A stretch of 37,563 nucleotides of DNA, taken from contig JACRCN010000092.1 in assembly GCA_016219005.1 (NCBI GenBank), positions 1 through 37,563 of the forward strand, written 5' to 3'. Below are positions 7,080 through 27,507 of this stretch, one piece after another (positions within the stretch are counted from its first letter, which is position 1; each line of letters begins with the position of its first letter). This DNA is from Deltaproteobacteria bacterium. Its GTDB lineage: Bacteria; Desulfobacterota; Desulfobacteria; Desulfobacterales; SpSt-501. The translations under genes and the position numbers were made by a program. The notes under the pieces were generated by a model. It had not been told where the DNA came from. It did no database searches and saw only the letters and a program-made list of their open reading frames with translations.

Positions 7080-7892
7080 TTATGGATGCAGGGCGTTGAG
7101 GAACTCCTGCGGCGGGACTTTGACACCGGTCCACAACTCCAGGGTGCGGCACGCCTGGAAGGCGAGTGGGTTCAGGCCGTCCATGAACCGAATCCCTTTT
7201 CGGTCCGCCATTTCCTGCCAGAAGTTGCGCCGCCGCCCGTAATTCAGGTCTATGACCAGTTCGCAGAAAGGCGTATCGAGCTTCTCCGCCAGCATGGCCA
7301 GGTCTTCCGACTCATCCGGGCTGGATACGGAGGTGGCGTTGATGATGATCGCGCACGGAAGTTGCAGGCCGTTGAGCGCTGCCGAGTCGATTGCACGGCC
7401 GTTGAACTCCTTCACGATGAGCCGGGCACGGTCGATGTTGCGGCCGGCCACCCAGACCTCGCGCGCCCGCAACCAGTTGAGGATGAACGCCACCGTGCGG
7501 GCGGCCCCCCCGGTGCCGAAAACCAGGGCGCTTTTATCCTCCACATTGTAATCAAGGCTGCGCAACGCGTCCATGATGCCGATGGCGTTGGTGTTGTACC
7601 CCTTGAGGCGGGTTCCATCCCGGACGATGGTGTTGATCGCCCCGATAATCTGGGCACCTTCGGAAAGAACATCCAGGTGAGGGATGACCGTTTCCTTGTA
7701 GGGAGCCGTGACGTTGGCGCCGGCAATGTTGAGCACCCGCAGCCCCTCGATGGCGGGGCCCAGGTTTGGGGGGTTGACCATGAAGGGCACGTAGACGGCG
7801 TTGATCCCCTGCCGTCTCAAGACGGTCGAGAACATGACCGGGGAGCGCGAGTGAAAGGCTCTTTCGTCGCTGAGGATACAGTAGACTTTCAT
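7080..7892 (-). CDS. Shikimate dehydrogenase (AroE)-like protein, altered active site
   Basis: Predicted 270-residue two-domain protein of the AroE family. Seen: substrate-side SRSP (15-18), ANVTAPYKE with the catalytic Lys at 66, GAINTI (84-89), and the Rossmann motif ALVFGTGGAARTV (about 125-137) ending in a C-terminal QACRTLELWTG. The family motif GxNTD, which carries the catalytic Asp, reads GYNTN here (Asn102; codon AAC on the minus strand). True AroE uses the Lys-Asp pair to reduce 3-dehydroshikimate with NADPH, so this may be a paralogue with another substrate or poor activity. It is the last gene in the minus-strand metF-hdrA operon, 103 bases after the receiver protein. The spacer holds an inverted repeat, so it may also be expressed separately. 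The family is certain; the function is not. Confidence 0.85.
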   Translation of the reverse strand: MKVYCILSDERAFHSRSPVMFSTVLRRQGINAVYVPFMVNPPNLGPAIEGLRVLNIAGANVTAPYKETVIPHLDVLSEGAQIIGAINTIVRDGTRLKGYNTNAIGIMDALRSLDYNVEDKSALVFGTGGAARTVAFILNWLRAREVWVAGRNIDRARLIVKEFNGRAIDSAALNGLQLPCAIIINATSVSSPDESEDLAMLAEKLDTPFCELVIDLNYGRRRNFWQEMADRKGIRFMDGLNPLAFQACRTLELWTGVKVPPQEFLNALHP

Positions 7893-7995: not shown

Positions 7996-8388
7996 TCACT
8001 CCATCGCGAGAAGCCGCTTCAGGCTGCGAGTGATATCCGCGGCGGAGGCCGGTTTGGCGATGTAGTCGTCGGCCTCGGTGGACATCCCGTCCGCATGGCT
8101 GTAACGGGTGGAGGTCACGTGGGAGGCCACGGCCGTCAGCAGCACGATCGGAATGTTGCAGTATACCGCACTGTGTTTCAGCTCCTTGCAGACGGTATAT
8201 CCGTCCTTTTCGGGCATCATGACATCCAGCACGATGGCATCCGGCGGGTTGGCCCGCACCTTGATCAGGCCCTCTTCACCGTTGTAGGCCAGCTCGACCT
8301 GAAAACCCTCCCGTTCGAGGTTGCCCTGCACCAGGGCTGCAAAATCAGCCTCGTCGTCGACGACCAGAATTCTTTTTTGAGCAGTCAT
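7996..8388 (-). CDS. Single-domain response regulator (CheY/PilH-like receiver)
   Basis: Predicted 130-residue protein consisting only of a receiver domain: VVDDEAD near the N-terminus, phospho-acceptor Asp in IVLDVMMPEKDG (about 54), Thr in LLTAVAS and Lys in YIAKPAS. It has no DNA-binding output, so it would act by protein interaction or as a phosphate sink. It has a very good ribosome site, AGGAGGT, seven bases before the ATG at 8388. It lies 75 bases after metF1 on the same strand and is probably part of the hdrA1 operon. Signalling to or from the metabolic complex is possible but unproven. Confidence 0.9.
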   Translation of the reverse strand: MTAQKRILVVDDEADFAALVQGNLEREGFQVELAYNGEEGLIKVRANPPDAIVLDVMMPEKDGYTVCKELKHSAVYCNIPIVLLTAVASHVTSTRYSHADGMSTEADDYIAKPASAADITRSLKRLLAME

Positions 8389-8463: not shown

Positions 8464-9396
8464 TCAGTTGAGCGCCGGGCGGGGATAGAGTCCCGCGCGC
8501 TCCACGATTCCTGGGACCCTTTCCTCCCACTCGATGGCCATGATGTGGAACCCGGCGACACCCTTGACGTCCTTCAGACGCTGGATGGATTCCACACAGA
8601 TGGTGATGCCTTCCTCGGCCTGCTTGTCTTTCGGGGTGCCCGCCATGCGTTTGACCACCTCGTCGGGGACATCCATGCCCGGCACCTTGGTCTTCATATA
8701 GCGCGCCATGCCCGCGGACTTCAGGGGGGTCACCCCGGCCAGGATGAAGACCCGCTCATGCAAACCGCGCTCCCGGACCCCCTCCATCCAGCGCTCGAAC
8801 TTCTCGATGTTGTAGATGCACTGGGTCTGGATGAATTCCGCCCCGGCGGCCGCCTTTTTGGCGAGACGCGGCACGCGGATCTCGAACGGGTCCGCAAAGG
8901 GGTTGGCCGCCGCGCCGACGAACATGCGCGGCGGGCGCCCAATGGCGTCTCCGCCGAGGAACTTGCCCTCATCGCGCATGCGGCGGACCGTCTGGATGAG
9001 CTGCATGGAATCCAGGTCGAACACGTTCTGTCCCTGGGCGCTGTCTCCGAAGCGCTGGTGGTCGCCGGACAGGCACAGGACGTTGTGGATGTCGAAGGAG
9101 GCGGCGCCGAGGATGTCGCTCTGCAGGGCGATGCGATTGCGGTCGCGGACGACCATCTGCAGCACCGGCTCCAGCCCCATCAATTTCAAGCGGATGCAGG
9201 CCGCCAGGCTGCAGAGGCGGCAGACCGAGGTCTGGTTGTCGGTGATGTTGATGGCGTCCACATGGTTCTTGATCAGCTCGGCCTTGTGGACGATGTGCGC
9301 TGCGTCGCTGCCCCGCGGCGGGCCGCACTCGGACGTCACGGCCAGGTGGCCGGCGCGCAGTATTTTCTCCAGCTTGCTGGGTGTGTTTGGATTCAT
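8464..9396 (-). CDS. metF: Methylenetetrahydrofolate reductase catalytic subunit, copy 1
   Basis: Predicted 310-residue flavin-dependent TIM-barrel enzyme interconverting 5,10-methylene-THF and 5-methyl-THF in the methyl branch of the Wood-Ljungdahl pathway. Family features: catalytic Glu in TSECGPPRG (about 24), NITDNQT, the DRNR motif (VVRDRNRIALQSD) and SGDH with the conserved Asp, plus a C-terminal HIMAIEWEERVP. It overlaps the metV stop by four bases (ATGA, 9393-9396), with GGGAGGA upstream. This is the short MetF form, which in acetogens pairs with MetV and cannot be assumed to use NAD(P)H by itself. Linkage with metV, mvhD and hdrA supports a multi-subunit complex. It is clearly related to but diverged from the copy at 23649-24572. 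Confidence 0.93.
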   Translation of the reverse strand: MNPNTPSKLEKILRAGHLAVTSECGPPRGSDAAHIVHKAELIKNHVDAINITDNQTSVCRLCSLAACIRLKLMGLEPVLQMVVRDRNRIALQSDILGAASFDIHNVLCLSGDHQRFGDSAQGQNVFDLDSMQLIQTVRRMRDEGKFLGGDAIGRPPRMFVGAAANPFADPFEIRVPRLAKKAAAGAEFIQTQCIYNIEKFERWMEGVRERGLHERVFILAGVTPLKSAGMARYMKTKVPGMDVPDEVVKRMAGTPKDKQAEEGITICVESIQRLKDVKGVAGFHIMAIEWEERVPGIVERAGLYPRPALN

Positions 9397-10061
9397 GATC
9401 GCAGATCCTCCCTGACGACCTTGCGGGGGCCTCCGGCCCGGTCGGTGGACCAGTCTTTGATGGGTGCCAGCGTCTCGTAGTCTTGCAAGCGGTTCAGCGC
9501 CTTGAGCCGGTTGATGATCAGCTGCCAGGCGCAGTCCACATCCTTGCTGATCTCGCACTTGCCGTCGGTGGAGCCGCCGCAAGGGCCGTTGAAGAGCCGT
9601 TTGGCGCAGCGGGCGACCGGGCACACCGCCCCGGTCCGGGCCAGAATGCAGCCGCCGCACCCCTGGCAGCGTTCGACCCAGACGCCGCGCTCCTGGGTGG
9701 CCCCCATGAAACTGGTGTTGACCCCCGGGTAGACAGGCTTGGACGGGTACTTTTCGGCCGTGAACTGGATGCCGACCCCGCAGGCCAGCGATACGACGGC
9801 GTCATACTGGTCGATGGCGTCACGGAGTTCCTCGAGGTATTCCGTGTCACACTGCCGCTCCAGGGTGCGCTCGCCGACATTGACCTCGCGAGCCTGCTGG
9901 AGGAAAACCATCCGCAGGGCCGATGCGAGCACCCCTACTTCCTTCTTACCGCCGGCTTCGCACACCGTCACGCACTCGTTGCAGCCCAGCACGAGAAGGC
10001 TGCGCACATCCTTGACCTGCTCGATGATCTCTTCGATCGGTTTCCTTTCAGCCACAATCAT
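9393..10061 (-). CDS. metV: MetV-like zinc/Fe-S subunit of methylene-THF reductase, copy 1
   Basis: Predicted 222-residue member of the methylenetetrahydrofolate reductase C-terminal (MetV) family. It is known as the partner of short MetF proteins, carrying metal clusters that relay electrons to the flavin. Cysteines visible include LGCNECVTVC (about 26-34), RQCD, LACGVG, and the C-terminal group CQGCGGCILARTGAVCP with CAKRLFNGPCGG and KCEI. AGGAGG precedes the ATG at 10061. It follows mvhD1 by 70 bases and overlaps metF1 by four, so translation of the pair is coupled. Confidence 0.93.
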   Translation of the reverse strand: MIVAERKPIEEIIEQVKDVRSLLVLGCNECVTVCEAGGKKEVGVLASALRMVFLQQAREVNVGERTLERQCDTEYLEELRDAIDQYDAVVSLACGVGIQFTAEKYPSKPVYPGVNTSFMGATQERGVWVERCQGCGGCILARTGAVCPVARCAKRLFNGPCGGSTDGKCEISKDVDCAWQLIINRLKALNRLQDYETLAPIKDWSTDRAGGPRKVVREDLRS

Positions 10062-10131: not shown

Positions 10132-10599
10132 TCAGGGATGGGCCGCAGGGGACGACGCGTCCGGAGCCGCTTTCATCGCCGCCCGGGCCCCGCGGATGGG
10201 GTTGGGACCGGCGCTCATTACCGCCGCGTGCATTTCCTCGGCGAAGCGCACGAAAAGCGGCGCGTCGCTCGATGACAGGTTGCACATGCGGATGCGGCTG
10301 CCGCCGATCCCGATCCGGTCAAGCAACTGCTGCGCCTGCTCCACGCGCTTTTTGGCGCGGAAGTTTCCGTTCTGGTAGTGGCAGTCGCCCTCGCGGCAGC
10401 CCACCACGTAGACCCCGTCCGCCCCGCGTTCGAAACACCGCAGCAGGTGCAGCACGTCCACCTTGCCCGTGCAGGGTACGCGGATGATCCGCACCGAACT
10501 GGGGTAATTCAGTCGCATCGAACCTGCCAGGTCCGCGGCCGTGTACCCTCAGAAGTTGCAGCAAAAGGCGATGATGATAGGTTCAAATCTCTCGTTCAT
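10132..10599 (-). CDS. mvhD: MvhD-like electron-transfer subunit, selenoprotein, copy 1
   Basis: Predicted 155-residue [2Fe-2S] MvhD/FrhD-family protein that passes electrons to HdrA. The N-terminal motif reads FCCNF-U-GYTAAD: the UGA at 10549-10551 (codon 17) sits where the family has the third Cys of its cluster motif. Other cysteines include VPCTG and CREGDCHYQNGN. Without readthrough the gene would give 16 residues, whereas the frame continues with full family similarity from the next codon to 10132. A SECIS-like stem-loop lies directly downstream of the UGA. The ATG at 10599 overlaps the hdrA1 stop (ATGA). There is no hydrogenase subunit nearby, so the electron donor is probably the MetV/MetF pair (inference). 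Confidence 0.93.
10509..10542 (-). promoter_or_regulatory. SECIS-like hairpin in mvhD1
   Basis: Starting six bases after the UGA, the RNA can form an outer stem (10535-10542 with 10509-10516, six of eight paired) and an inner stem GGACCU/AGGUUC closed by the loop GGC. Bacterial SelB needs such a hairpin just 3' of the UGA. The same fold occurs in mvhD2, where one outer pair changes between C-G and U-G, which keeps pairing. Confidence 0.72.
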
Positions 10600-13500
10600 A
10601 GGATTCCCTCCAGGAGAGCATCCACCTTGCAGAGGAGTTGCTCGTCCTCATACCAATTGAGCTCGATGGCCTTGGCCGGGCACTCCGCCGCGCAGATGCC
10701 GCACCCGTGGCACAGCGCCTCGTCGATGTGGCTGACGCCCTCGGCGTTGATCCGCGGCACGTGGTACGGGCAGGAGCGCACGCAGATCAGGCAGGCGGCG
10801 CAAACATCCGGGTTGACCTTGGCCGTCACGGCCGACAGCGTCAGGCGGCTCTTGGACAGGAAGGTGACGGCCCGGGAGGCCGCCGCATGCGCCTGGCCGA
10901 TCGATTCGTTGATGAGCTGCGGGCTGTGGGCGGTGCCGCAGATGAAGAGCCCTTCGGTCGCCATATCCACCGGCCGCAGCTTGACGTGCGCCTCCATGAA
11001 ATGCCCCTCGGGCGTGCGCGCCAGCTTGACGATCGACGAAAGCTCCTCGGTATCGGATGGCACCAGGCCGGCGCTCAGGGCCAGGAGGTCGGCCTCCACC
11101 TGAAGTTCCCGGCCGATGATCCGGTCGCGGAACGTCACGGTCACCCCGCCGTCGCGGGTTTCGACCCGGGGCGGGGCGTCGGCATCGTAACGGAAGAAGA
11201 GGATGCCCTTGCGCCGGGCCTGCTCGTAGTAGTCTTCGAGCAGGCCGTAGGTGCGCATGTCGCGATAGAGGATGAAGACATCGGTTGCGGGGGAGAGGTC
11301 CTTGATGTGAATGGCATTCTTGACCGCGGCCTGGCAGCAGACGCGCGAGCAGTTGGGGTTTTGCTCGTTGCGCGAGCCCACGCACTGGATCATGACCACC
11401 TGGGCCAAGCCCCGTGCGCCGTGCTCCTGGAGTCTTGCACCCAACTCCACCTGGGTCACGACATGCTCGCTCTGGCCGTAGCCGTATTCGGTGGGCCGGT
11501 ATTCCGTCGCACCGGTGGCGAGAATCACGACGCCGTGGTCGATCTTGCGCTCGTACATGCCGGGACCGACCAGGACCTCGGTGGTGAAGTTGCCCTTGAA
11601 CCCGCCGAAGCCGACGATGAGCGAACGCGTCAGCGCCTGGATCCGGGGATGGGACTGCACCCGGCCCATCAACTCCTGCAGGTAGCGCTGGATATCCCAG
11701 CCTTCGATGGTGGCGTGGAGGCGATGGGCCATGCCGCCCAGTCGCTCCTCTTTTTCCACCAGGACCACTTCATAGCCCTGGTCGGCGATGGCCAGGGCCG
11801 CGTTCATTCCGGCAACCCCCCCGCCGATGACCAGGGCCCGCGGGTTGACCGGGATGACCTTTTCCGCCAACGGGTTCAGTGTAGCGGCTCTGGCCGCCGC
11901 CATTGCCACCAGTTGCTTGGCCTTGGCGGTGGCCTGCCTCGGCGTCTGGCTGTGCACCCAGGAGTCCTGGTTGCGGATGTTGGCCATTTCGAAGAGGTAT
12001 TTGTTCAGCCCGGTCCCCTCGAGGGTGTCCATGAAAATGCCTTCGTGGGTCTTCGGCGAGCAGGCGGCCACCACCACCCGGTTCAGGCGGTGTTCGGCGA
12101 TCGCCTGTTTCATCAACTCCTGGGAGTCCTGGCTGCACGTGAACAGGTTCTGCCCCGCGAACACCACGTTCGGCAGCGTCCGGGCATATTCCTGCACTCC
12201 TTTGACATCCACCACGGCCGCGATGTTCACGCCGCAGTTGCAGACGAATACGCCGATGCGCGGTTCCGCGCCGCGAATGTCGATCTCCGCCGGGAGTTCC
12301 ACCTGCCGGGTCAGGGTGTTGCGGGCCGCACTCAGCATCCGACCGGCCAGGCAGGCGGCGGCGCTGGCTTCGGCCACCGATCCGGGGATGTCCTTGGGTT
12401 GTTGGAACACGCCGCCGGCGAACACCCCGGGCCGCGAGGTGGCCACCGGCAGGAACGGCGGGGAAACGGCGAAGTTGTAGCGGTCCACATCGATCGCGAG
12501 GCGCTTCGCCAGTTCACGGGTTTCCGGTGTCACCTGCAGCCCCACCGAGAGGACCACCATGTCGAACGCCTCCTCTCGGATCTCGCCCTTCTCGTCCACA
12601 AAGCGCAGCCGCAGCGAACGCCCGGGCCCGGCCTCGTCGACGCTGTGCACGCGCGCATTGATGAAGCGCACCCCGGCCGTGTCCTTGGCCCGGGTGTAAT
12701 ACTTCTCATAGTCCTTGCCGAAAGTGCGGATGTCCATGTAGAAGATGGCGCAATCCAGATCCCCGTGGGCGTGGTCCTTGGCGATCATCGCGTCCTTGAT
12801 GGCGTACATGCAGCACACCGACGAGCAGTAGCCGTTGCCGGAGCGGTTGATGTCGCGGGAGCCCACGCACTGCAGCCAGGCGATCTTCTTGGGCTCCTTT
12901 CCGTCCGACGGCCGCACCAGATGACCCATGGTGGGGCCCGAGGCGCTCAGGAGGCGTTCGAATTCCAGGCTGGTGACGACGTCCGGATTTTTCCGGTAGG
13001 GATAGACGTTGGCGAGCATGGCGGGGTCAAACGGTTCGCTGCCGGGGCAGAGGATGACCGAGCCGACCTGAAGGTCCCGGGTGACCGGCACCTGGTGATG
13101 GTCGACGGCCTTGGCCAGGCAGGCATCGACGCACTGCAGGCATTCGCAACAGTAGCCGCAGTTCACGCAGCGTCCGGCTTCCGCGCGCCCGGCGGGCTCG
13201 TCGAAGCCCAGTTCGACCTCGTTGAAGCTGCCCCGGCGCTGCGCGACCGGCAGCTCGGGCATCCTGGCCCGGGGACGGCGGGTTTCGTTTTGCGGGATGG
13301 GTCGATAGCGCGGGTTCTCGTGGGCGACGGGCTGCCGCCCTGCGGCCACGTCGCGGCCCTCGATGTAACGCAGAATCGACTCGGCTGCTTCCTTGCCTGC
13401 GGCGACGGCGCCGATGGCGACCCAGGGGCCGGTCTGCAGATCGCCGCCGGCGAACACGCCCGGCCGCTCGGTGGCGTAAGTGACCGCGTTGACCTCGAGC

Positions 13501-15074
13501 GTGCCATAGCGCGAGAAGGTGAGGCCGGTGATGTTTTCAAGGGCCGTGAGGTCCGGCCGTTGGCCGATGGCCGGAATCAACTGATCGCATTCGATCTCAA
13601 ACTCGCTGCCGGGGATGGGAACGGGCCGCTTGCGGCCGGAGGAATCCGGTTCGGTCAGCTGCATGCGGATGCAGCGCAGCCCGACCACCTGGCCGTTCCG
13701 GGTCAACACTTCCTGGGGCGCGGCGAGATAGGTGATACCTGCCCCCTCGGCTTCCGCCGCCTGGATTTCCTCCTCCCAGGCCGGCATCTCGCTGCGGGTG
13801 CGGCGGTAGATGATGGTCGTCTCTTCTGCGCCGAGTCGTACGGCCGAGCGCGAGACGTCGATGGCGACGTTGCCGCCGCCGATGATCACCACCTTGCGGC
13901 CGACCCGGGCCATGCCGGTGAGGTTGACCTCGCGCAGGAAGTCCACGCCCTGACGGACGCCGTCGGCCTTCTCGCCCGGGACCCCGAGTTCAATCCCCTT
14001 ATGAGCCCCCAGTGCCAGGTAGACCGCCTTGTAGCCCTTGCGGAAGAGGTCATCAATGCTCAGATCCCGGCCTAAAGCGGTGTTGAGCTCTATTTCGACG
14101 CCCAGGTTGGTGACGACCTCGATTTCCTGCTCCAGGACTTCCCGCGGCAGCCGGTGGGCCGGGATGCCGACACGCAGCATGCCTCCCGGCTGTGAAAGCG
14201 CCTCGAAGATGGTCGATCGGAATCCCTTGCGCGCCAGATGATAGGCGCAGGACAACCCCGCCGGCCCGGAGCCGATGATAGCGACCCGGTCCGGCCGCGC
14301 CGGCGCGCAGGGGATCTGAATCCCCCGCGGGTCGACCCGGTCGGCGGCCAGGCGTTTGAGGTTGCGGATGGCGACCGGCTCGTCCACCTCGGCGCGCCGG
14401 CAGGCATCTTCGCAGCCGTGGGGGCAAATCCGGCCTAGAACGCCGGGAAGCGGCAGGTCCTCCATGATGATCTCCAGGGCCTCATGGAACTTGCCCTCCT
14501 TGACCATTTGGACGTAGCCTTGGACGTTCAGCCCGGCCGGGCAAGCCATGCGGCACGGGGCCTTGTCGGCCTTGCGGATGGCGTAGGCGCCGGGGATGGC
14601 CTGGGCATATTGCTTGAATGCGGCCCTCTGCATGGAGAGGCCTTCGTCGTAATCGTTCGGAAGCCCCACGGGGCAGACCTTGGCGCATTCCCCGCAGCTG
14701 GTGCACTTGGCGGTGTCGATGTAACGGGGTTTCTGAAGGACTTTTGCCGTGAAGTGCCCGGGAGTGCCCTCCAGCGACAGAACCTCGCCTTGGGTGATGA
14801 TCTCGACATTCAGATGCCGGCCGACCTCGACCAGTTTGGGCGAGATAATTCACATCGCGCAGTCGTTGGTGGGGAAGGTCTTGTCCAGCTGGGACATCAG
14901 CCCGCCGATGGCGGAAGACTTTTCCACCAGGTAGACGTAGTAGCCGGAATTGGCCAGATCCAGAGCGGACTGGATGCCGGCGATACCACCGCCGACCACC
15001 ATGACCGCGCCGACCGGAGGAGCCCCCGCGTCGATTCCTCCCACGACGTTGCCTTCAACGATCTGAGGTTTCAT
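10596..15074 (-). CDS. hdrA: Giant HdrA fusion (HdrA-NfnB/GltD-HdrA), selenoprotein, copy 1
   Basis: Predicted 1492-residue flavin/Fe-S protein. Order: HdrA FAD motif VVGGGIAG (27-33); NDCAM-U with UGA at 14850-14852 as codon 75; ferredoxin [12 protein letters not shown] (about 124-135); a GltD/NfnB-like insert with cysteines at about 174, 178, 217, 221 and 225, FAD motif GSGPAG (268-273), NAD(P) motif GGGNVAID (399-406) and YRRT (423-426). The HdrA part then resumes ([13 protein letters not shown]). A second HdrA module starts at CNCGVN (about 937) with FAD motif VIGGGVAG (about 1079), and two [4Fe-4S] motifs (about 1424 and 1453) close the protein. HdrA flavin is the known site of electron bifurcation; the insert suggests direct NAD(P)H exchange (inference). 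No hdrB or hdrC is adjacent. The ATG at 15074 follows GGGGGGA, 12 bases after the metF-like(3) stop. Confidence 0.93.
14817..14834 (-). promoter_or_regulatory. SECIS-like hairpin in hdrA1
   Basis: Fifteen bases after the UGA, the minus strand reads CTGGTC-GAGGTC-GGCCGG: six base pairs and a six-base loop GAGGUC. The AGGUC string also occurs in the apical loop of the E. coli fdhF SECIS (from memory). In this copy a further outer pairing ATCTCG/CGAGAT is possible around it. The hairpin is identical in hdrA2. Confidence 0.75.
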
Positions 15075-15086: not shown

Positions 15087-15956
15087 TTAAATCCCCTCAA
15101 CGATGTCCGGAAGTTTGTGCTCCCACCCCAGGGTGGACAGCACGACTCCTTTGAAGCCCTCCGCCTTGATCCCGGCGGTCAGTTCGACGGCGATGCGCAC
15201 GCACTCCCGCGCCTTGTCGCCCGCCTTCTGAATACGGTCGATGGTCTCCGGCGGGATGGCAATATGCGGCATGTTACGTTCGATGTAGCGGGCCATGCCC
15301 AGGGATTTCAGCAGCAGCACGGTCGGCAGGATGATCGTCCGCTCGCGGTCGACCCGGCGCAAAAACGGCCGGATCAACTCCAGGTCGAAAAGCGGCGGCG
15401 TGATGAAAAAGCGGGCCCCCGCTTCCGCGCGCTGCGTCATCTGCTCCACTTCGATTTCGGCCGACCTTCCTTTGGCACCGGCATGGGTCGTCGATCCGAC
15501 GAGAAAATTCGGGGTGCCGTCAAGCTCGACGCCCGACATGTCCCGGCCGCTTTGAAGGGTCTGCATGACGTGTAGCAACTCGAGCAGGCTGACGTCGTGA
15601 ACGGCCCGGGCCTGGTGGTGATCTCCATAGCTTGCGTCTTCTCCGTCGACGACGGCGATGTTCCGGACCCGACAGGCCGCAGCCGCCAACAGGTCTCCTT
15701 GCAGCGCCAGACGGTTGCGGTCACGGCAGCACATCTGCATCACGGTTTCCATGCCGTCCCGCTCCAGCAGCATGGCGGCGCCCAAGGCGCTCATGCGCAT
15801 CACGGCGTGGCTCATTTCCGGGATGAGAAAGGCGGCTACGCGGTCCTTGACGCGCTTGGCATGCGAAACCGTGGCGGCGACATTCACGCCTTTGGGGGGC
15901 TCCATCTCGGCTATGATGGCGAATTCTCCGGTCTCGAATTTCCCTTGAAGCGCCAT
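15087..15956 (-). CDS. Divergent methylenetetrahydrofolate reductase-like protein
   Basis: Predicted 289-residue protein of the MetF fold, first gene of the minus-strand operon. It keeps the catalytic-type Glu17 before PP (IIAEMEPPKG) and the CRDRNRLALQGD motif. It differs from both other MetF copies at key places: SGD reads DGE (Glu106), and NITDN is replaced by LIPEM. It has no own MetV beside it. It may be a second flavin subunit of the HdrA1 complex, or use a different C1 carrier or substrate. The ATG at 15956 has a strong GGGAGGGAG site, and the gap to hdrA1 is only 12 bases. Confidence 0.85.
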   Translation of the reverse strand: MALQGKFETGEFAIIAEMEPPKGVNVAATVSHAKRVKDRVAAFLIPEMSHAVMRMSALGAAMLLERDGMETVMQMCCRDRNRLALQGDLLAAAACRVRNIAVVDGEDASYGDHHQARAVHDVSLLELLHVMQTLQSGRDMSGVELDGTPNFLVGSTTHAGAKGRSAEIEVEQMTQRAEAGARFFITPPLFDLELIRPFLRRVDRERTIILPTVLLLKSLGMARYIERNMPHIAIPPETIDRIQKAGDKARECVRIAVELTAGIKAEGFKGVVLSTLGWEHKLPDIVEGI

Positions 15957-16320: not shown

Positions 16321-17691
16321 ATGAGCCCACGCATTTTGATTGTCGATGACGACCGTGACTACCTCGATCTTTCCAGAAACCGGCTGAACGCAAGCGGGTT
16401 CAAGGCGGTAGACGCGTTGGAGGATCCGCGGCAGGCCGCCGAGTTGTTCGAATCGAATGTTACCTACGATGTGGCGGTGATCGATATCGGCATGCCGGAG
16501 ATGGACGGGCAGGCCCTGCTGGAGGTCATCAAGAAAACCAGTCCGGCCACCGAATGCATCATGGTCACCGCCATGAACGACGCACGCACCGCCGTCAATT
16601 GCCTGCGAAAAGGCGCCTACGATTATCTCGTCAAACCGGTTTCCGAAGACGAGGTGATCTTCGCCGTCAAGCGGGCGCTGGAACGCAAGCGCCTGCTGGA
16701 CATCCTGCACGTGGAAAAGAGCAGGCAGCCCCCCGCGTTCTCCCATCCGGCAGCCTTCCAGCCGATTCTCACCCGTTCGAAGGGGCTTCTGCGGGTGCTC
16801 AAGGAGGCCGAGCTGCACGCCGGCAGCGACGTCCCCATACTGGTCACCGGCGAGAGCGGCACCGGCAAGGAACTCCTGGCCCGGGCCATCCACGCCGCGA
16901 GCCCCCGCGCCGAGCAACCGTTTTTGCCCGTCAACATGGCGGCGCTGACCAACGAGCTGTTCGATGCCGAATTCTTCGGCCACACCAAGGGGGCGTTCAC
17001 CGGCGCGGAAAAAGAACGTGCGGGTCACTTGAAACACTGCAATCGCGGGACCCTGTTTTTGGACGAGATCGGGAACCTCCCGCTGGCCATGCAGGGCAAG
17101 CTCCTGCGGGTGCTGCAGGACGGGGAGTTCACCCCGGTGGGGAGCAGCACCCAGCAGAAGGCCGACGTGCGGTTCGTGGCCGCAACCAACGAGGATCTGG
17201 ATCAGATGATCGCCGACGGGCGGTTCCGGCGGGATCTTTTCTACCGCATCCGGGGAAGCTGGCTCCATCTGCCCGCCCTGCGGGAGCGCCCGGAAGACAT
17301 CCCCTTGCTCATCGAGCATTTCCTGAGGGACTTCTCCCCGGCCGGCCGGCAATGCCGGGCGGACGAAGCGGCCTTGCGTGCCCTGCTGGGGTACGCTTAC
17401 CCGGGCAACGTGCGTGAGCTTAAATCCATCCTCCAGGCCGCGGTCAACCTGGCGCAGGGGCTCGCGATTTCGTTGAAGTGCCTCCCGGAGCAGGTCCGCA
17501 AATGTCGGCCCGGTGCTGCCGGCAGAAGCCCGGGCCAGGATGGCCCGATCCTGCCGTTCGCTCAGGTCGAGAAAAACCACATTCTGAGCGTCTATCGTCA
17601 GCTGGGAGGCAACAAAGTCCAAAGCGCCCGTGCCCTCGGGATCGGCCTGAATACATTAAGACGGAAGCTCAAATCCTATCAGGTGCAATAA
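16321..17691 (+). CDS. Sigma-54-dependent response regulator between the two hdrA clusters
   Basis: Predicted 456-residue NtrC-family activator: receiver domain (DDD pocket, phospho-acceptor Asp55 in VAVIDIGMPEMDG, Lys in LVKPVSE), AAA+ domain with Walker A GESGTGKE, an intact GAFTGA sigma-54 loop (224-229), TLFLDEIGN, and a C-terminal Fis-type HTH (NKVQSARALGIGLNTLRRKL). AAGGTAAGG precedes the ATG at 16321. No kinase gene is adjacent, so the partner is elsewhere, possibly among the kinases at 1938-6847. Its place between the divergent clusters, the sigma-54 promoter facing away from it and the nearby palindromes make it the likely activator of the metF-like(3)/hdrA1 operon (inference). Confidence 0.94.
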   Translation: MSPRILIVDDDRDYLDLSRNRLNASGFKAVDALEDPRQAAELFESNVTYDVAVIDIGMPEMDGQALLEVIKKTSPATECIMVTAMNDARTAVNCLRKGAYDYLVKPVSEDEVIFAVKRALERKRLLDILHVEKSRQPPAFSHPAAFQPILTRSKGLLRVLKEAELHAGSDVPILVTGESGTGKELLARAIHAASPRAEQPFLPVNMAALTNELFDAEFFGHTKGAFTGAEKERAGHLKHCNRGTLFLDEIGNLPLAMQGKLLRVLQDGEFTPVGSSTQQKADVRFVAATNEDLDQMIADGRFRRDLFYRIRGSWLHLPALRERPEDIPLLIEHFLRDFSPAGRQCRADEAALRALLGYAYPGNVRELKSILQAAVNLAQGLAISLKCLPEQVRKCRPGAAGRSPGQDGPILPFAQVEKNHILSVYRQLGGNKVQSARALGIGLNTLRRKLKSYQVQ

Positions 17692-17881: not shown

Positions 17882-20800
17882 ATGGCATCAGCAACAGGCA
17901 CGAAAAGCGGATCAGTGATGGTCATCGGCGCCGGCATCGCCGGCATGCAGGCCTCCCTCGACCTGGCCAACTCGGATTTCAAGGTCTATCTGGTCGACAA
18001 GCTGCCCACCGTGGGCGGAATGATGTCTCAGCTGGACAAGACCTTCCCCACCAACGACTGTGCCATGTGAGTGATCTCGCCCAAACTGGTCGAGGTCGGC
18101 CGGCACACAAACATCGATTTGCTCACCAATTCCGAACTCATCGATCTCAAAGGGGAACCCGGTAACTTCACGGCGACGGTCCGTCGCAACCCCCGCTACG
18201 TAGACCTGGCCAAGTGCACGAGCTGCGGCGAATGCACCAAGGTCTGCCCCATCGAGACGACCAACACCTATGACGAGGGGCTCTCGCAGCGCAAGGCAAT
18301 CTACAAGCACTACGCCCAGGCCATGCCGGGCGCCTACGCCATCAACAAGCGCGGCACCGCGCCCTGCAAGGCGACCTGCCCTGCGCACGTCAGCATCCAG
18401 GGCTACATCGCCCTGATCAACGCGGGCAAGTATCAAGAGGCACTGGAACTGTTCCGGGAGGAGCACCCCTTTCCCGCGGTGTGCGGCCGTGTCTGTCATC
18501 ACCCCTGCGAAAAAATGTGCACCCGCAGCGACCTTGACCAGCCGCTCGCCATCCGGGAGCTGCATCGGTTCCTCGCCGATGTCGAGCGTTCCCGGGGTGA
18601 ACCGGCCATCCCGGCCGCTGGCGCGCCGCGGCCGGAGAAGGTGGCCGTCATCGGCTCGGGTCCGGCCGGGCTCACGGCCGCTTATTACCTGGCCAAGCAG
18701 GGCTACCAGGTCACGGTGTTTGAAAAGCTGCCGGTCGCCGGCGGCATGATGGCGGTCGGGATCCCCGCCTACCGTCTGCCCCGCGACATTCTGAACTTCG
18801 AGATCGAGGTGATCCGGAAGATGGGGGTCGCCATCCAGACCGGCGTCACCTTCGGCCAGGACATCACCCTGGACAGTCTGAAGGCGGACGGTTTCAAGGC
18901 GGTGTTCCTGGGGATCGGCCTGCACGGCGGCCGTCGCCTGGGTGTTGAAAACGAGGATGCCGCGGGCGTGCTGCAGGGCGTTGAATTCCTGCGCGACGCC
19001 GCCCTGGGCCGGAAAATCGAAATCGGCCAGGACGTGCTCGTCGTCGGCGGCGGCAACGTGGCCGTGGACGTGGCACTCACCGCCAAGCGCCTGGGCGCCA
19101 AGAACGTCACCATGGTCTGCCTGGAGCGACGCGAGGAAATGCCCGCCTGGGCGCACGAAATCCAGGAGGCCCTGGAAAGCGATATTACGATCGTCAACAG
19201 CTTCGGGCCGAAGGCCTTTTTCATCGACAAGCGCCGGCGGGTCTCGGGCCTCGAGTTCAAGACCTGTACGGCGGTTTTTGACGAGAACAAACGCTTCAAC
19301 CCCCAGTACGACGAGAGCGCCTGCACCCCGATGTTCGCCGATACGATCATCATCTCCATCGGTCAGAGCACCGACCGCGCCCACCTGGACGGCCAGGGCA
19401 TCGCCTTCTCCCGGGTCGGCGGCCTGCAGGCCGATTCGGTCACCCTGCAGACCAACCTGGAGTGGGTGTTTGCGGGTGGCGACGCCTTCCACGGGCCCAA
19501 GTCGGTGGTGGAGGCGGTGGCGAGCGGCAAAGAGGCCGCTGAGAGCATCCACCGTTACATCAACGGGCTGGATCTGCGCGCAGGCCGGCAGAAGGAATGG
19601 GAACACGTGAAGCCGGATTTGGCCGGCGAGCCGCTGCACTCCCGTGTGACGGTGCGCTGTCTGGACCCGGCGGCCCGGGAGTGCAACTTCCTCGAGGTGT
19701 CGTTCGGCTACGACGAGAAAGAGGCGCGACTGGAGTCCCAGCGCTGCCTGCGCTGCGGCATCTGCTCGGAGTGCTACCAGTGCGTGAAGGCCTGCCTCGC
19801 CAAGGCGGTCGACCACACCCAGCAACCCGAGACCCTCGAAATCCAGGTGGGATCCCTGATCCTGTGCCCGGGCTCCGAGCCGTTCGACCCGTCGCGTCTG
19901 GAGAACATCTACCACTACAACAGCAGCCCCAACGTGGTGACCAGCCTCGAGTTCGAACGCATCCTGAGCGCCACCGGCCCCACCATGGGGCACCTTAAGC
20001 GGCTGGCGGACGATACGGAGCCCAAACGGATCGCCTGGCTGCAGTGCGTGGGCTCGCGCGACAACAACCAGTGCGGCAACAGCTACTGCTCATCGGTGTG
20101 CTGCATGTACGCGCTGAAGGACGCCATGATCGCCAAGGAGCACGCCCACGGCGACCTGGAGTGCACCATCTTCAACATGGACATCCGCAGCTTCGGCAAG
20201 GACTACGAGAAGTACTACCTGCGGGCCGTCAAAGACGGCATCCGCTTCGTGCGCTCGCGGGTCCACTCCGTGGACGTGTTGCCCGAAACCGGCAACCTGT
20301 CGATCCGATACGTGAACGACGCCGGCGACCTAAAGCTCGAAGAGTTCGACATGGTGGTGCTTTCCGTCGGGCTGCAGATCACGCCCGCGACCCTTGCGCT
20401 CGCCAAGAAGCTGGGGGTGGACCTCCACAAGTCCGGCTTTGCCGCCAACGAGCCTTTCGCGCCGGTTGAAACCTCCCGGCCCGGGGTCTATGCCTGTGGC
20501 GTGTTCCAGGGGCCGAAGGACATCCCGAGCTCCGTGACCGATGCCAGCGCGGCGGCCGTGATGGCCGGAGCCGACCTGGCCGAGGCCCGCGGCCGGGACA
20601 TCCAGAAGATTCAGCTGCCCGAGGAGTTGGACGTCTCCGAGGAGGACCCGCGCATCGGGGTCTTCGTGTGCAACTGCGGCATCAACATCGGCGGCGTGGT
20701 GGACGTGCCCGGAGTGCGGGCCTACGCCGAGAAGCTGCCCCATGTGGTCTACGCCGACGAGAACCTTTTCACCTGCAGCCAGGACACCCAGGAGAAAATC

Positions 20801-22321
20801 AAGGAGAAGATCAAAGAGCACAAGCTCAACCGCGTGGTGGTGGCCTCCTGCAGCCCCAAGACCCACGCCCCCATGTTCATGGAGACCCTGGAAGCCTGCG
20901 GCCTGAACCCCTATCTGTTCGAGATGGCCAACATCCGCAACCAGGACTCCTGGGTGCACTCCGGCGATCACGACGCCGCCACCCGCAAAGCCAGGGATCT
21001 CGTCCGGATGTCGGTCGCCCGTGCTGCCACCCTCAAGACGCTGCACAGCAAGGTGGTCTCGATCAACAAGCAGGCCCTCGTGATCGGCGGCGGGATCGCC
21101 GGCATGAATGCCGGCCTGGGGCTCGCGCGCCAGGGCTTCGCGGTGGTGCTCGTCGAAAAAGAGGCCGAGTTGGGCGGTTTTGCCCGCCGGCTGCACCACA
21201 CCATCGAGGGCGCGGACATTCAGGATTACCTCAAGCAGTTGACCGCCCGGGTGACCGGCCACCCGAAGATCCGCGTGCTGACCCAGGCCCGGATTACCGC
21301 CTGCGAGGGTTTCAAGGGCAACTTTACCACGACCGTGCAGTGCGGCTCCGGCGGCCAGCCGGAGCGGATCGAGCATGGCGTGATCCTGGTGGCAACCGGC
21401 GCTACCGAGTACCGTCCCAAGGAATTCCTTTACGGCCAGGACGGGCGTGTCATGACCCAGGTCGAGCTGAGCGACGCGCTGGCCGAAAAGGGCGCCGCGG
21501 ACCTGCAGAGTGTGGTCATGATCCAGTGCGTGGGCTCCCGCAACGAGGAAAACGTGAACTGCTCGCGCATCTGCTGCCAGAACGCCGTGAAAAATTCCCT
21601 GAACATCAAGAAGCTCAACCCAGAGGCACAGGTCTACATCCTGTACCGGGACATCCGCACTTACGGCCTGCTCGAGGATTATTACACCGAGGCCCGCAAG
21701 CAGGGTGTGATCTTCATCCGGTTCGAACCGGAGGCCCCCCCCCAGGTGATCAACACGGCGGAGGGGATCGCGGTGCGGGTGAAGGACCACGTGCTGCAGC
21801 GGGAGCTCGAGATCGTGGCGGACCGGGTGGTGCTGAGCGCCGGGGTCACGGCGGCGGACACCGCGGAGCTGAGCGGCATCATGAAGTTCAACCGCAACCC
21901 GGAGGGTTTCTTCATCGAGGCCCACGTTAAACTGCGGCCGGTGGACATGCCGAGCGAGGGGGTCTACCTCTGCGGCACGGCCCACGGGCCCAAGCTGATC
22001 TCGGAGACCATCGCGCAGGCGCAGGCCGCGGCGGCGCGGGCCAGTACACTGCTGGCCAAGGATTCCGTGAGACTTTCCGCCATCACGGCCAAGGTCGACA
22101 CGGAGCGTTGCGTGAAATGCCTTACCTGCGTGCGCTCCTGCCCCTTCGGTGTCCCACTGTACAATGACAAGGAGAAGGTCGTTGAGATCAACGAGGCCCT
22201 CTGTCACGGCTGCGGCGTTTGCACGGCGGTGTGCCCGCGGCAGACCATCAACCTGAGTTTTTACGAGGATCCCCAGCTCGTGTGCAAGATCGAAGCGCTG
22301 CTGGCGGAGGAGGTGGGCTAA
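17882..22321 (+). CDS. hdrA: Giant HdrA fusion (HdrA-NfnB/GltD-HdrA), selenoprotein, copy 2
   Basis: Predicted 1479-residue paralogue of the protein at 10596-15074 with the same order. It has FAD motif VIGAGIAG (about 14-21); NDCAM-U with UGA at 18068-18070 as codon 63; ferredoxin [12 protein letters not shown] (112-123); and a GltD/NfnB-like insert with GSGPAG (258-263), GGGNVAVD (389-396) and LERREEMPA (414-422). A second HdrA module begins at CNCGIN (about 925) with FAD motif VIGGGIAG (about 1064), followed by [12 protein letters not shown] (about 1409) and [12 protein letters not shown] (about 1440). The insert's NAD(P) loop has Leu-Glu where copy 1 has Arg-Arg, suggesting a different nucleotide preference (inference). 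GAGGAG precedes the ATG. The stop shares one base with the ATG of mvhD2. It is the first gene of a four-gene operon ending at the 24610 terminator. Confidence 0.93.
18086..18103 (+). promoter_or_regulatory. SECIS-like hairpin in hdrA2
   Basis: CTGGTC (18086-18091), loop GAGGTC, GGCCGG (18098-18103), fifteen bases after the UGA: six pairs, two of them G-U. Identical to the hairpin in hdrA1. The sequence also encodes the conserved KLVEVGR segment, so protein constraint contributes to the identity. Confidence 0.75.
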
Positions 22322-22746
22322 TGCCGGAGTTCGAACCCAACATCATCGCGTTCTGCTGCGAATACTGAGGGTACTCGGCTGCGGACCTGGCAGGTTCCAT
22401 GCGACTGAACTACCCGAGCAACGTGAAGATCATCCTGGTGCCGTGCACCGGCAAGGTGGACGTGATCCACATGCTGACGGCGATCCAGAAGGGCGCCGAC
22501 GGCGTCTACTGCGTCGGCTGCCTGGAAGGGGCCTGCCATTACAATCAGGGCAACCTTCGCTGCCGGGAGCGTGTCAATCACGTGCGCTCCCTGCTGCAGG
22601 AAGTCGGCCTGGAGCCTGAGCGCGTGCGGATGTACAACCTGTCCTCCGGCGAAGGCCCGACGTTTGCCGCTTACGCCAAGGAGATGACCGAGAACATCCA
22701 GAAGCTGGGGCCGAACCCGCTGAAAAAAAAAGCGGGTGTCGCCTGA
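22321..22746 (+). CDS. mvhD: MvhD-like electron-transfer subunit, selenoprotein, copy 2
   Basis: Predicted 141-residue MvhD-family protein. FCCEY-U-GYSAAD has UGA at 22366-22368 (codon 16) in place of a cluster cysteine. Further cysteines occur in VPCTGK and YCVGCLEGACHY. Without recoding, translation would stop after 15 residues, while the remaining frame keeps full family similarity. The ATG overlaps the hdrA2 stop by one base (TAATG), so it is translationally coupled. It is the probable link between HdrA2 and the MetV2/MetF2 pair. A 181-base gap separates it from metV2. Confidence 0.93.
22375..22408 (+). promoter_or_regulatory. SECIS-like hairpin in mvhD2
   Basis: Outer stem 22375-22382 with 22401-22408 (seven of eight paired, counting G-U), inner stem GGACCT (22383-22388) with AGGTTC (22392-22397), loop GGC, and a three-base bulge on the 3' side. 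It begins six bases after the UGA, the position required for bacterial SECIS function. Confidence 0.72.
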
Positions 22747-22927: not shown

Positions 22928-23605
22928 ATGATAGTCGCCAAGCGCAAACCGTTCGATGAGATCATGCAGTTGGTCAAAGGCCACAAGAAGGTGCTGGTCG
23001 TGGGCTGCGGCACATGTGTTGCCGTCTGTTTGGCCGGCGGGGAGAAGGAAGTGGCGGTCCTGGCCACGGAGCTGGACATGGGCCGCAAGCTGGCCAACAA
23101 CCCCGTGGAGTTGGGTTCGATCACGCTGGAGCGGCAGTGCGACCGCGAGTACCTCGCTCAGCTGGACGGCATGGTGAAGGACTACGACGCTCTCATCTCC
23201 ATGGCCTGCGGCGTAGGCATCCAGTTCCTGGCCGAGCGTTTCCCGGACAAGCCCGTGTTCCCGGCGGTGGATACCTGCGGCCTGGCGGTGAACCAGGATG
23301 TCGGTTGGTACGAGGAGCGCTGCCGCTCCTGCGGCCGGTGCGTTCTCGGTCTCACCGGGGGGATCTGCCCCGTCACGATGTGCGCCAAGGGCCTCTACAA
23401 CGGGCCGTGCGGCGGCACCAACAAGGGCAGCTGCGAAATCAACGCCGACCAGCCCTGCGCCTGGTTCAACATCTATGAACGGCTGAAGGCCCAGGGCCGC
23501 CTGGACTGCCTCCTGAAGGTGCAGCCGCCCCAGGAGTGGAAGGACACCACCCCGCGGACGCTGATCCAGCCCGGCTACACGAAACCCGAAAAGGCCAAGA
23601 CCTAG
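22928..23605 (+). CDS. metV: MetV-like zinc/Fe-S subunit of methylene-THF reductase, copy 2
   Basis: Predicted 225-residue MetV-family protein. It has the same cysteine layout as copy 1: GCGTCVAVC (about 26-34), RQCD, MACGVG, then CRSCGRCVLGLTGGICP, CAKGLYNGPCGG and SCEINADQPCAW. It would carry electrons between MvhD/HdrA and the MetF flavin. ATG 22928 is preceded by GGAGGC. The metF2 start lies 43 bases after its stop, whereas in cluster 1 metV and metF overlap by four bases. Confidence 0.93.
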   Translation: MIVAKRKPFDEIMQLVKGHKKVLVVGCGTCVAVCLAGGEKEVAVLATELDMGRKLANNPVELGSITLERQCDREYLAQLDGMVKDYDALISMACGVGIQFLAERFPDKPVFPAVDTCGLAVNQDVGWYEERCRSCGRCVLGLTGGICPVTMCAKGLYNGPCGGTNKGSCEINADQPCAWFNIYERLKAQGRLDCLLKVQPPQEWKDTTPRTLIQPGYTKPEKAKT

Positions 23606-23648: not shown

Positions 23649-24572
23649 ATGAAATCAGGAAGCAATTTGGAAAAAGTGCTGACCGCGGGACATTTTGCCT
23701 TCACCGGCGAGCTGGGCCCACCACGGGGCGCCCATGCCGAAGAGGTCCGTAAGAAGGCCGTTTTTCTCAAGGGCCGCGTGGATTCCGTGAACATCACCGA
23801 CAACCAGACGGCCATGGTGCGCATGGCGAGCTGGGCGGCCAGCCTCATTCTCATCCAGGAGGGTCTCGAGCCCAACTACCAGATGGTCTGCCGCGACCGC
23901 AACCGCCTGGCCATGCAGGCCGACATCCTCGGAGCCTGTGCGCTGGGCATCCGCAACATGCTCTGTCTGTCGGGCGACCACTGCCAGTTCGGCGATCACC
24001 CCACCGCCAAAGGGGTCTTCGACATCGACTCCATGCAGCTCATCTCCACGGTGAAAAAAATGCGCGACGAGGGCAAATTTTTGAGCGGGGCCGATCTGGA
24101 CGGAAAACCCCAGATTTTCATCGGCGCCGCCTCCAACCCCTTCGCCGACCCCTTCGAGTGGCGTGTGCACCGGCTGGCCAAGAAGATCAGCGCCGGAGTG
24201 GATTTCGTCCAGACCCAGTGCATCTACAACATGGCCAAGTTCCGCGAGTTCATCCGTCAGGCGAACGACATGGGGCTGACCGAAAAGGCTTACATTCTTG
24301 CCGGCGTCACCCCGATGAAGAGCCTCGGTATGGCCAAGTACATGAAGGGCAAAGTGCCCGGCATGGACGTGCCGGACGAGATCATCAGCCGCCTGCAGGG
24401 CGTTGCGCGGGATAAACAGGCCGAGGAGGGGATCAAGATCGCCCTCGAGCAGATCGCGGAATTCAAGGAGATGAAAGGCGTGCATGGCGTCCACCTCATG
24501 GCTATCGAGTGGGAACACCGCGTGCCGGAAATCGCCGAAAGAGCCGGAATGCTTCCGCGGCCTAAGGTATGA
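23649..24572 (+). CDS. metF: Methylenetetrahydrofolate reductase catalytic subunit, copy 2
   Basis: Predicted 307-residue short-form MetF with catalytic Glu in FTGELGPPRG, NITDNQT, CRDRNRLAMQADI and LSGDH, and the same C-terminal HLMAIEWEHRVP as copy 1. By eye well over half of the residues match copy 1, so they are old paralogues rather than a recent duplication. It is the last gene of the hdrA2 operon, with an intrinsic terminator 38 bases after the stop. ATG 23649 is chosen at the start of family similarity; the ribosome site upstream is weak (AAGGATG). Confidence 0.93.
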   Translation: MKSGSNLEKVLTAGHFAFTGELGPPRGAHAEEVRKKAVFLKGRVDSVNITDNQTAMVRMASWAASLILIQEGLEPNYQMVCRDRNRLAMQADILGACALGIRNMLCLSGDHCQFGDHPTAKGVFDIDSMQLISTVKKMRDEGKFLSGADLDGKPQIFIGAASNPFADPFEWRVHRLAKKISAGVDFVQTQCIYNMAKFREFIRQANDMGLTEKAYILAGVTPMKSLGMAKYMKGKVPGMDVPDEIISRLQGVARDKQAEEGIKIALEQIAEFKEMKGVHGVHLMAIEWEHRVPEIAERAGMLPRPKV

Positions 24573-25516: not shown

Positions 25517-25532
25517 AATTTAAGGAGGAATT

Positions 25533-27350: not shown

Positions 27351-27416
27351 GGGCGACGGGGTGTTATCCAGAGTGCAAGCGGGGAAGGGGGCAGGGGTTG
27401 AGAACAATGATCCAGG

Positions 27417-27459
27417 TTGTTCCGAGCCGGACTTCATGCTATAAAAATCTCTTTATAGC
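27417..27459 (+). promoter_or_regulatory. Candidate internal promoter and palindrome before the Fe-S oxidoreductase
   Basis: TTGTTC (27417-27422), 17 bases, TATAAA (27440-27445, 5 of 6). The -10 box is the left arm of a perfect 8-base inverted repeat, GCTATAAA (27438-27445) and TTTATAGC (27452-27459). It may be a secondary promoter with an overlapping operator. It is not a terminator, since there is no T-run after the stem. Confidence 0.4.
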
Positions 27460-27507
27460 GTCGTAGCAGGGGTCGAACGAATACGTTGCGACGGAAAGGA
27501 CATCCAC

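Follow-up and report, generated by a model that had tools for sequence, protein, structure and literature searches.

Proteins that carry HdrA-type flavin units and a glutamate synthase-like (GltD) module in one chain were named HdrL in 2009 (PMC2702500), the architecture was detailed for Moorella in 2022 (PMC9430772), and its parts were classed as type II and type III HdrA in archaea in 2025 (PMC12054007); these and the other papers are cited throughout for the portions of their text that were available to us. The architecture is thus already known. Such chains bear on the question of how Moorella-type acetogens and, by analogy, sulfate reducers with the same gene set couple the methyl-tetrahydrofolate (THF)/methylene-THF step (about -200 mV) to NAD(P)(H). 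Here we analyse HdrL1, encoded in a stretch of 37,563 nucleotides (the window: positions 1 to 37,563 of contig JACRCN010000092.1, GenBank assembly GCA_016219005.1) from a member of the Desulfobacterales, and its paralogue HdrL2, encoded nearby. We give an even chance to the reading that HdrL1 is the flavin and iron-sulfur (Fe-S) scaffold of an Hdr-type, MetVF-linked methylene-THF reductase, built as a pseudo-dimer, with the GltD/NfnB insert as its nicotinamide port and an HdrA-type flavin that bifurcates.

The HdrL proteins of Desulfobacterium autotrophicum HRM2 are HdrA/glutamate synthase fusions with an NADH site and an mvhD gene behind each, and two of them, HdrL1 and HdrL3, are selenoproteins (PMC2702500). 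The chain described here agrees with them in joining HdrA-type flavin adenine dinucleotide (FAD) and GltD domains, in having mvhD directly downstream, and in belonging to a group in which some members contain selenocysteine; in contrast to our locus, HRM2 hdrL1 adjoins dsrABC, and HRM2 HdrL3 has an additional predicted fumarate-reductase domain (PMC2702500). Similarly built is the HdrA of the Moorella thermoacetica MetVF-HdrABC-MvhD complex, of about 1487 amino acids, with a thioredoxin reductase-like unit interrupted by GltD, a second such unit, a glutamate/lysine pair in both, and three FAD and eight [4Fe-4S] sites predicted; its operon includes mvhD-metVF (PMC9430772). That operon also has hdrB and hdrC, whereas both clusters of the window are without them, and the window differs further in its two divergent clusters and its TGA-coded selenocysteine. 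Of the gene set of type IV methylene-THF reductase, metV, metF, mvhD and hdrA therefore stand together here and hdrB and hdrC do not, because of which we file the protein as an HdrL that works like MetVF-HdrABC-MvhD but is not a full member of it.

In archaea, ANME-1 HdrA9-11 and the type III HdrA of methane-metabolising species likewise carry GltD/NfnB inserted in the ferredoxin domain, and type II proteins or HdrA3/4 are two-unit fusions with complementary domains (PMC9012536, PMC12054007). Insert and two-unit fusion are described there as separate types, whereas HdrL combines both, and the ANME-1 proteins, unlike HdrL1, are not clustered with metF. The same GltD/NfnB module with a C-terminal CxxC occurs in StnC of Sporomusa ovata (8oh5) and in the NfnABC chain 9bov of Caldicellulosiruptor, which rank with the strongest matches to the HdrL1 insert by both sequence and fold; StnC fuses it to a NuoG/FdhF-like part (PMC10482914) and 9bov to a chain named molybdopterin oxidoreductase, neither to HdrA. 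A preliminary description of this DNA had pointed to the three-module chain and its two possible bifurcation sites; neither is new, and two such sites have already been proposed for chains of this kind (PMC9012536, PMC9430772). What the locus appears to add, as judged from sequence, is the match of a predicted selenocysteine, U75, to ligand Cys197 of HdrA, and a matched twin of selenium-containing clusters with differing nicotinamide loops beside genes for methyl-folate enzymes. Among the matches listed by our searches we found no published account of a twin NADP-type and NAD-type pair or of the U75/Cys197 match.

The hdrL1 gene encodes a single chain of 1492 amino acids followed by a stop, with one in-frame TGA at codon 75. 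Without read-through of this TGA a standard caller of open reading frames (ORFs) opens the gene only at 14669, a need that was absent from the preliminary description. Pfam matches comprise four stretches of Pyr_redox_2, one of Fer4_20 (residues 168-248), which is the Fe-S domain of DPD/GltD, and a dicluster ferredoxin at the C-terminus. The NCBIfam HdrA2 model matches in four stretches with 940 bits, short of its curated cut-off of 1100, and the GltD-like model PRK12771 exceeds its own cut-off, with its best stretch at 165-666. In phmmer searches against PDB sequences, the HdrA of 5odc falls on HdrL1 in four pieces, namely 25-168 (unit 1 FAD domain and ferredoxin motif 1), 641-814 (ferredoxin motif 2 and part of the unit 1 FAD domain), 937-1108 (unit 2 N-terminal domain) and 1307-1487 (unit 2 tail and C-terminal ferredoxin), while NfnB/StnC-type chains cover 171-655 or 171-670. 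From these placements we conclude that the NfnB/GltD module splits the ferredoxin domain that is itself inserted in HdrA, with a second HdrA unit behind.

Predicted structures agree with this order. An AlphaFold model of residues 1-930 (mean predicted local distance difference test score, pLDDT, 90.0; predicted template modelling score 0.84) superposes on HdrA 5odc_A over 427 residues in the model range 14-918 (Z 50.0, root-mean-square deviation, rmsd, 1.8), suggesting that the HdrA fold can accommodate the insert. The insert of this model matches 9bov_A (Z 51.8, rmsd 1.8, 475 residues, 169-657), StnC 8oh5_C (Z 49.9) and NADP-bound NfnL 5jca_L (Z 40.6, rmsd 1.5, 401 residues), and a model of unit 2 (915-1492, pLDDT 87.4) matches 5odc_A with Z 39.3 and rmsd 3.3 over 553 residues. 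Near-full-length relatives occur at most of the 80 best public loci, which are spread over many phyla (a few relatives end at contig edges), and in at least 24 of 40 searched genomes, our own counted; the architecture is therefore neither chance nor an assembly artefact. Translation, profile searches, phmmer and superpositions thus bear out the HdrA-NfnB/GltD-HdrA order given in the preliminary description, and fold and motif matches support its view that a single chain holds three modules of flavin type together with a nicotinamide port.

The TGA stands in the motif TNDCAM-TGA-IISPKL. Across the 80 public loci the corresponding codon is TGA in 37, cysteine in 39 and unresolved in four, and HdrL2 has a TGA at the matching codon. 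The genome (5.24 Mb in 106 contigs, 98.5% complete, 4.7% contamination) contains a tRNA-Sec above cut-off adjoining a SelB gene, plus a second SelB above cut-off; the same searches found a tRNA-Sec over cut-off in 5 of 14 control genomes and SelB in 2 of 14. Given TGA or cysteine at this site in loci and paralogue, and tRNA-Sec and SelB in the genome, selenocysteine is the natural reading, and codon 75 very probably encodes it. HdrA and MvhD are listed as selenoprotein families with a CxxU motif (PMC13188914), and both mvhD genes of the window carry an in-frame TGA in an FCCxxUGY motif. With HdrL counted, two or more selenoproteins are thus predicted per cluster. The codons that follow the TGA are identical between hdrL1 and hdrL2 at 10 of 12 positions with the same residue, but 96 of 803 windows equal that. 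A frameshift, a pseudogene or an assembly error as the cause of the interrupted hdrL1 frame is ruled out by the 37 TGA-bearing loci, the paralogue, the tRNA-Sec and the two SelB genes.

In the solved HdrA dimer, Cys197 of each chain serves as one of the ligands of the partner's N-terminal cluster, and the branch to ferredoxin passes through this cluster (PMC9012536). In fused HdrAs, Moorella HdrA included, one unit retains the N-terminal domain and the other retains Cys197, so that they have been read as their own heterodimers (PMC9012536). HdrL1 follows this division. In the alignment to 5odc, U75 corresponds to Cys197 and C72 to Cys194; unit 1 is without an N-terminal domain by the 5odc placement, and unit 2 has one. 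The half of the unit 2 FAD domain that matches the Cys197 region contains no cysteine in 76 rows, one in 13 and two in one row of an alignment of 90 rows. This alignment comprises HdrL1, HdrL2 and 88 of 89 loci (80 public and nine from a genome search, with L087 left out); two genome-search rows are identical to GenBank rows, and 87 of 89 rows are different when L093 is also omitted. Because U75 matches Cys197, and because unit 2 has the N-terminal domain but not the Cys197 motif, the fusion resembles a pseudo-dimer that complements itself, with selenocysteine as the cross ligand. For archaeal type III HdrA it has been argued that the GltD insert blocks ferredoxin and routes NADH electrons via the same clusters (PMC12054007). 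We found no published statement of selenocysteine as an HdrA Fe-S ligand in a literature search that left most subscription papers uncovered. If correct, an Fe-S-ligating selenocysteine across the HdrA pseudo-dimer would give the long-known selenocysteine of HdrA a concrete role.

The cofactor sites of the chain are essentially invariant, including the second FAD-domain set (C1231, C1242, C1246, C1247) and the C-terminal ferredoxin set C1425-C1465. All 90 rows have cysteine at C636-C652 (except at the variable C643), C736-C755, C945-C1005 and C1231-C1247, and the remaining cluster cysteines are kept in 84 to 88 rows. Nearly all other rows are gaps there, apart from one non-cysteine residue, in one row each, at C124, C130 and C134. 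The CxxC of the insert (C636, C639) closes three residues ahead of the first HdrA ligand, C642, a spacing kept in 90/90 rows. If these cysteines bind the clusters of their homologues, the insert cluster should therefore be close to the HdrA ferredoxin cluster. An insert lying too far from the HdrA clusters for electron transfer, which the preliminary description had named as fatal to its proposal, is thus argued against by the spacing, as far as sequence can show. The bifurcation signature of HdrA, E356/K409 of 5odc, corresponds to E706/K760 in unit 1 and E1210/K1252 in unit 2, each in a thioredoxin reductase-like FAD domain as in bifurcating HdrA; the pair is complete in 90/90 rows in unit 1 and in 62/90 in unit 2, and the unit 1 FAD is the likeliest bifurcating flavin on these grounds.

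Among the 80 public loci, mvhD lies near HdrL at 69, metV at 54 and metF at 52. Where the downstream DNA spans 3 kb or more (54 loci), 40 have all three; because the other 26 carry less, the counts are lower bounds, and they depend on the queries, which were genes of the window plus HdrB/HdrC from loci L100 and L137. In three genomes of the genus, hdrL, mvhD, metV and metF form, in this order, a closely spaced run on one strand. A homologue of metF3, the gene directly upstream of hdrL1, lies within 1.5 kb of HdrL at 20/80 loci, two of the homologues being only 24-26% identical.

The preliminary description held that the usual HdrB/HdrC partner would be unnecessary. HdrB and HdrC are indeed unlinked to the clusters, where we found no hdrB, hdrC or HdrD-type gene, but dispensability does not follow. 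HdrB-like genes occur in HdrL flanks at 10/80 loci (any match in the fetched flanks; nine within about 2.5 kb of HdrL, L108 about 6 kb off, and L100 the source of a query), and genes for HdrD, the fused HdrC-HdrB type, at 12/80 (excluding L100, whose 30% match is to another CCG protein, and including L065, the query itself, and L124 and L095, where the gene is several kb away). Loci with HdrCB near HdrL are assigned to Chloroflexota, Spirochaetota, Poribacteria, Armatimonadota and others, and some Desulfobacterales have near HdrL an HdrD-like gene (CCG plus dicluster ferredoxin) with its own TGA in the motif LNTEUGH (L057:10175-11494, L065:13870-15189). Our genome encodes HdrD relatives unlinked to the window, one 69% identical with one TGA (contig C74) and one 60% identical (C73). 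Likewise unlinked, C47 carries an HdrB/HdrC-like pair with CCG and dicluster ferredoxin domains, whose HdrB match, the best of the genome-wide search, scores 85 bits where the family cut-off is 345. No HdrB/HdrC hidden in the clusters turned up: genome-wide HdrB and CCG searches match this contig only inside a membrane CCG protein at 27508-29583.

If HdrL1 assembles with its neighbours as we propose, unit 1 would supply the ferredoxin domain and U75 as the partner-side ligand, and unit 2 the N-terminal cluster and the C-terminal ferredoxin, at which MetF-MetV-MvhD would dock. The insert, seated on the ferredoxin domain where canonical HdrA feeds free ferredoxin, would couple NAD(P)(H) to this point of exit. 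Bifurcation would fall to an HdrA-type flavin, for which the evidence is best in unit 1. When methyl groups are oxidised, methyl-THF (about -200 mV) would deliver electrons that are then split between two paths: one pair would pass through the U75-ligated cluster, the ferredoxin domain and the insert to NAD(P)+, and a second pair would reach an acceptor of higher potential, which may be menaquinone or a protein of HdrD type. Either direction of the methyl-THF step is conceivable. Moorella HdrA oxidises NADH (PMC9430772), and confurcation of menaquinol and NADH has been proposed for Moorella methylene-THF reduction (PMC13391211). Reversed, that scheme would send the electrons of two methyl-THF (-200 mV) to NAD(P)+ (-320 mV) and to menaquinone (-74 mV), a nearly balanced reaction, and it is the one we favour for HdrL-MvhD-MetVF here. 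A genome search for two markers of metabolism, DsrA and CdhC, found both, from which the organism is likely a sulfate reducer with carbon monoxide dehydrogenase/acetyl-CoA synthase.

The preliminary description had counted both NfnB and HdrA as bifurcating. Its two sites are supported in that the HdrA signature is present in both HdrA units, whereas NfnB as a site is less well supported. One could suppose that the insert is a true third bifurcation site that splits NAD(P)H electrons within itself: R308, kept in 89/90 rows with one gap, corresponds to R201 of Pyrococcus furiosus NfnL, an arginine in contact with the N5 position of the FAD that bifurcates there, the nearest solved relative, 9bov, comes from a complex titled electron-bifurcating Nfn-ABC, and a like proposal was made for ANME-1 HdrA-NfnB proteins (PMC9012536). 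Yet StnC, which is nearly as close, has the arginine and an FAD that does not bifurcate (PMC10482914). Moreover, the high-potential electron of Nfn goes to NfnA, and the insert has no adjoining NfnA gene; NfnA-type (DHODB) Fe-S domains are absent from this contig and were found genome-wide only on contigs C8 and C64, the one on C8 with a GltD-type gene of its own directly behind. We consider a third site improbable and take the insert to be, most likely, a nicotinamide port whose flavin does not bifurcate.

Bifurcation by an HdrA-type flavin has itself to be weighed against simpler wiring. HdrL1 might be a large, non-bifurcating diaphorase in which electrons pass between NAD(P)H and MetVF along the most direct chain of Fe-S clusters, since methylene-THF reduction by NAD(P)H needs no coupling; the high NADH:viologen activity of Moorella HdrA would fit (PMC9430772), and in the literature portions available to us we found no coupled reaction published for any HdrA of this architecture. 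We doubt this reading while taking it seriously, as it leaves without a part the glutamate/lysine pair present in both units, invariant in unit 1, and as oxidising methyl-THF with NAD+ as the sole acceptor is strongly endergonic (PMC13391211), while this organism has dsrA and cdhC. Alternatively, the scaffold could serve heterodisulfide- or DsrC-type chemistry through the unlinked HdrD or HdrCB, with MetVF one of several clients, a view favoured by the HdrD and HdrB genes in the flanks of other HdrL loci, by their relatives elsewhere in this genome, and by hdrL1 preceding dsrABC in Desulfobacterium (PMC2702500). The tight same-strand order of hdrL, mvhD, metV and metF in the three genomes of the genus examined and the lack of an HdrB- or HdrD-type gene in either cluster of the window make it, in our view, unlikely. 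Several observations weigh against the bifurcating, MetVF-linked pseudo-dimer that we prefer. The unit 2 signature is incomplete in 28/90 rows; candidate selenocysteine insertion stem-loops behind the four TGAs (hdrL1, hdrL2, mvhD1, mvhD2) did not fold better than shuffled sequences (z -0.36 to -0.99, not significant); and an S. ovata extract oxidised neither NADH nor NADPH with methylene-THF (PMC9430772). Furthermore, HdrL occurs with neither metV nor metF in the fetched flanks of some loci (for example L103, L110, L118, L125 and L128), and therefore the scaffold probably serves other enzymes too.

Two other genomes of the genus were examined, and both show the twin arrangement of the window, with an NtrC-type gene between the divergent clusters. 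In all three genomes, every HdrL1 has the nicotinamide loop YRR and every HdrL2 has CLE, and all HdrL and MvhD carry the TGA. Over the 90 rows the loop is YRR in 60, LE-type in 28 and neither in two (one a gap), and on a FastTree tree built without the loop columns the loop states need at least seven changes, against a mean of 23.8 when shuffled. Our reading of the loop, YRR for NADP(H) and LE for NAD(H), leans partly on general knowledge of Rossmann folds. It also draws on two conserved NfnB arginines that bind the extra phosphate of NADP, for which the source does not number the residues (PMC6405883). By this rule the loops tentatively suggest that HdrL1 is NADP-type and that HdrL2, which is without these arginines, is NAD-type. 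Against such a split, the rule by which GxGxxG marks NAD and GxGxxA marks NADP (PMC12054007) labels both paralogues NADP-type, as 89/89 rows with residues at that site end in A. Loop type shows no simple match to the type of the flanking MetV/MetF, as YRR-type HdrL stands beside MetV2-like genes at L063 and L065.

We speculate, with the chances against us, that this genus runs two selenoprotein HdrL-MvhD-MetV-MetF complexes, HdrL1 on NADP(H) and HdrL2 on NAD(H), each a covalent HdrA pseudo-dimer in which the selenocysteine of unit 1 ligates a unit 2 [4Fe-4S] cluster on the nicotinamide branch. If so, the cell could decide whether the NADP(H) or the NAD(H) pool bears the cost, or takes the benefit, of methyl-THF reduction or oxidation. 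As the paralogues differ in their nicotinamide loop and all modules have solved homologues, the coupling of the methyl-THF step to NAD(P)(H) can be tested by comparing the two directly. The coordinates of the features are collected in Table 1.

Table 1. Features of HdrL1 and of the two clusters, in positions of the window.
Feature	Position	Strand	Basis
hdrL1, HdrA(NfnB/GltD insert)-HdrA fusion, 1492 amino acids	10596..15074	-	translation, Pfam, NCBIfam, phmmer, AlphaFold
Unit 1 thioredoxin reductase-like FAD domain, first half, and ferredoxin motif 1 (residues 21-168; C124 C127 C130 C134)	14571..15014	-	phmmer, alignment, model
In-frame TGA, codon 75, predicted selenocysteine U75	14850..14852	-	aligns with 5odc HdrA Cys197
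NfnB/GltD insert (about 169-641): Fe-S domain (C174 C178 C217 C221 C225 C636 C639), FAD fold, NAD(P)H fold with YRRTR loop 423-427	13152..14570	-	Pfam, NCBIfam, phmmer, alignment, model
Unit 1 ferredoxin motif 2 (C642 C645 C648 C652) and FAD domain second half, E706/K760, C736 C750 C754 C755 (642-918)	12321..13151	-	phmmer, alignment
Unit 2 HdrA N-terminal Fe-S domain (937-1075; C945 C947 C980 C1005)	11850..12266	-	phmmer, alignment, model
Unit 2 thioredoxin reductase-like FAD domain, no inserted ferredoxin, no Cys197 motif (1076-1410; E1210/K1252)	10845..11849	-	phmmer, alignment, model
Unit 2 C-terminal ferredoxin domain, two [4Fe-4S] motifs (1411-1492)	10599..10844	-	Pfam, phmmer, alignment
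mvhD1 (FlpD family), ATG overlaps hdrL1 stop (ATGA), in-frame TGA 10551-10549	10132..10599	-	family search
metV1 (DUF5981, C-terminal MTHFR-associated domain)	9393..10061	-	Pfam
metF1 (methylenetetrahydrofolate reductase, MTHFR, family)	8464..9396	-	Pfam, NCBIfam
metF3, MTHFR family, directly upstream of hdrL1, 31% identical to MetF1	15087..15956	-	Pfam
NtrC-type regulator (response regulator, sigma-54 activator, Fis), placed between the divergent twins	16321..17691	+	family search; position shared by two further genomes of the genus
hdrL2, paralogue of hdrL1 (56-57% identical), TGA 18068-18070, loop CLERR instead of YRRTR	17882..22321	+	translation, alignment
mvhD2 (FlpD family), TGA 22366-22368	22321..22746	+	family search
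metV2	22928..23605	+	Pfam
metF2	23649..24572	+	Pfam

Further genes of the window adjoin these clusters. Behind metF1 stand a single-domain response regulator (7996-8388, minus strand) and a gene of the shikimate dehydrogenase family (7080-7892, minus strand); at L057 and L095 an HdrD gene sits instead between metF1 and a shikimate dehydrogenase-like gene. Elsewhere in the genome, the HdrD relative on C74 faces two ORFs that we read as one formate dehydrogenase-like gene split by a stop. Ahead of the first cluster, several ORFs between 572 and 6847 read as histidine kinases and response regulators. Behind the second cluster, at 24845-31415 on the plus strand, lie a TetR-type regulator, an acyl-CoA dehydrogenase, a CCG plus ferredoxin protein and an electron-transferring flavoprotein gene pair (the second gene, 30441-31415, by reading), a set that suggests fatty acid oxidation coupled to a membrane carrier.

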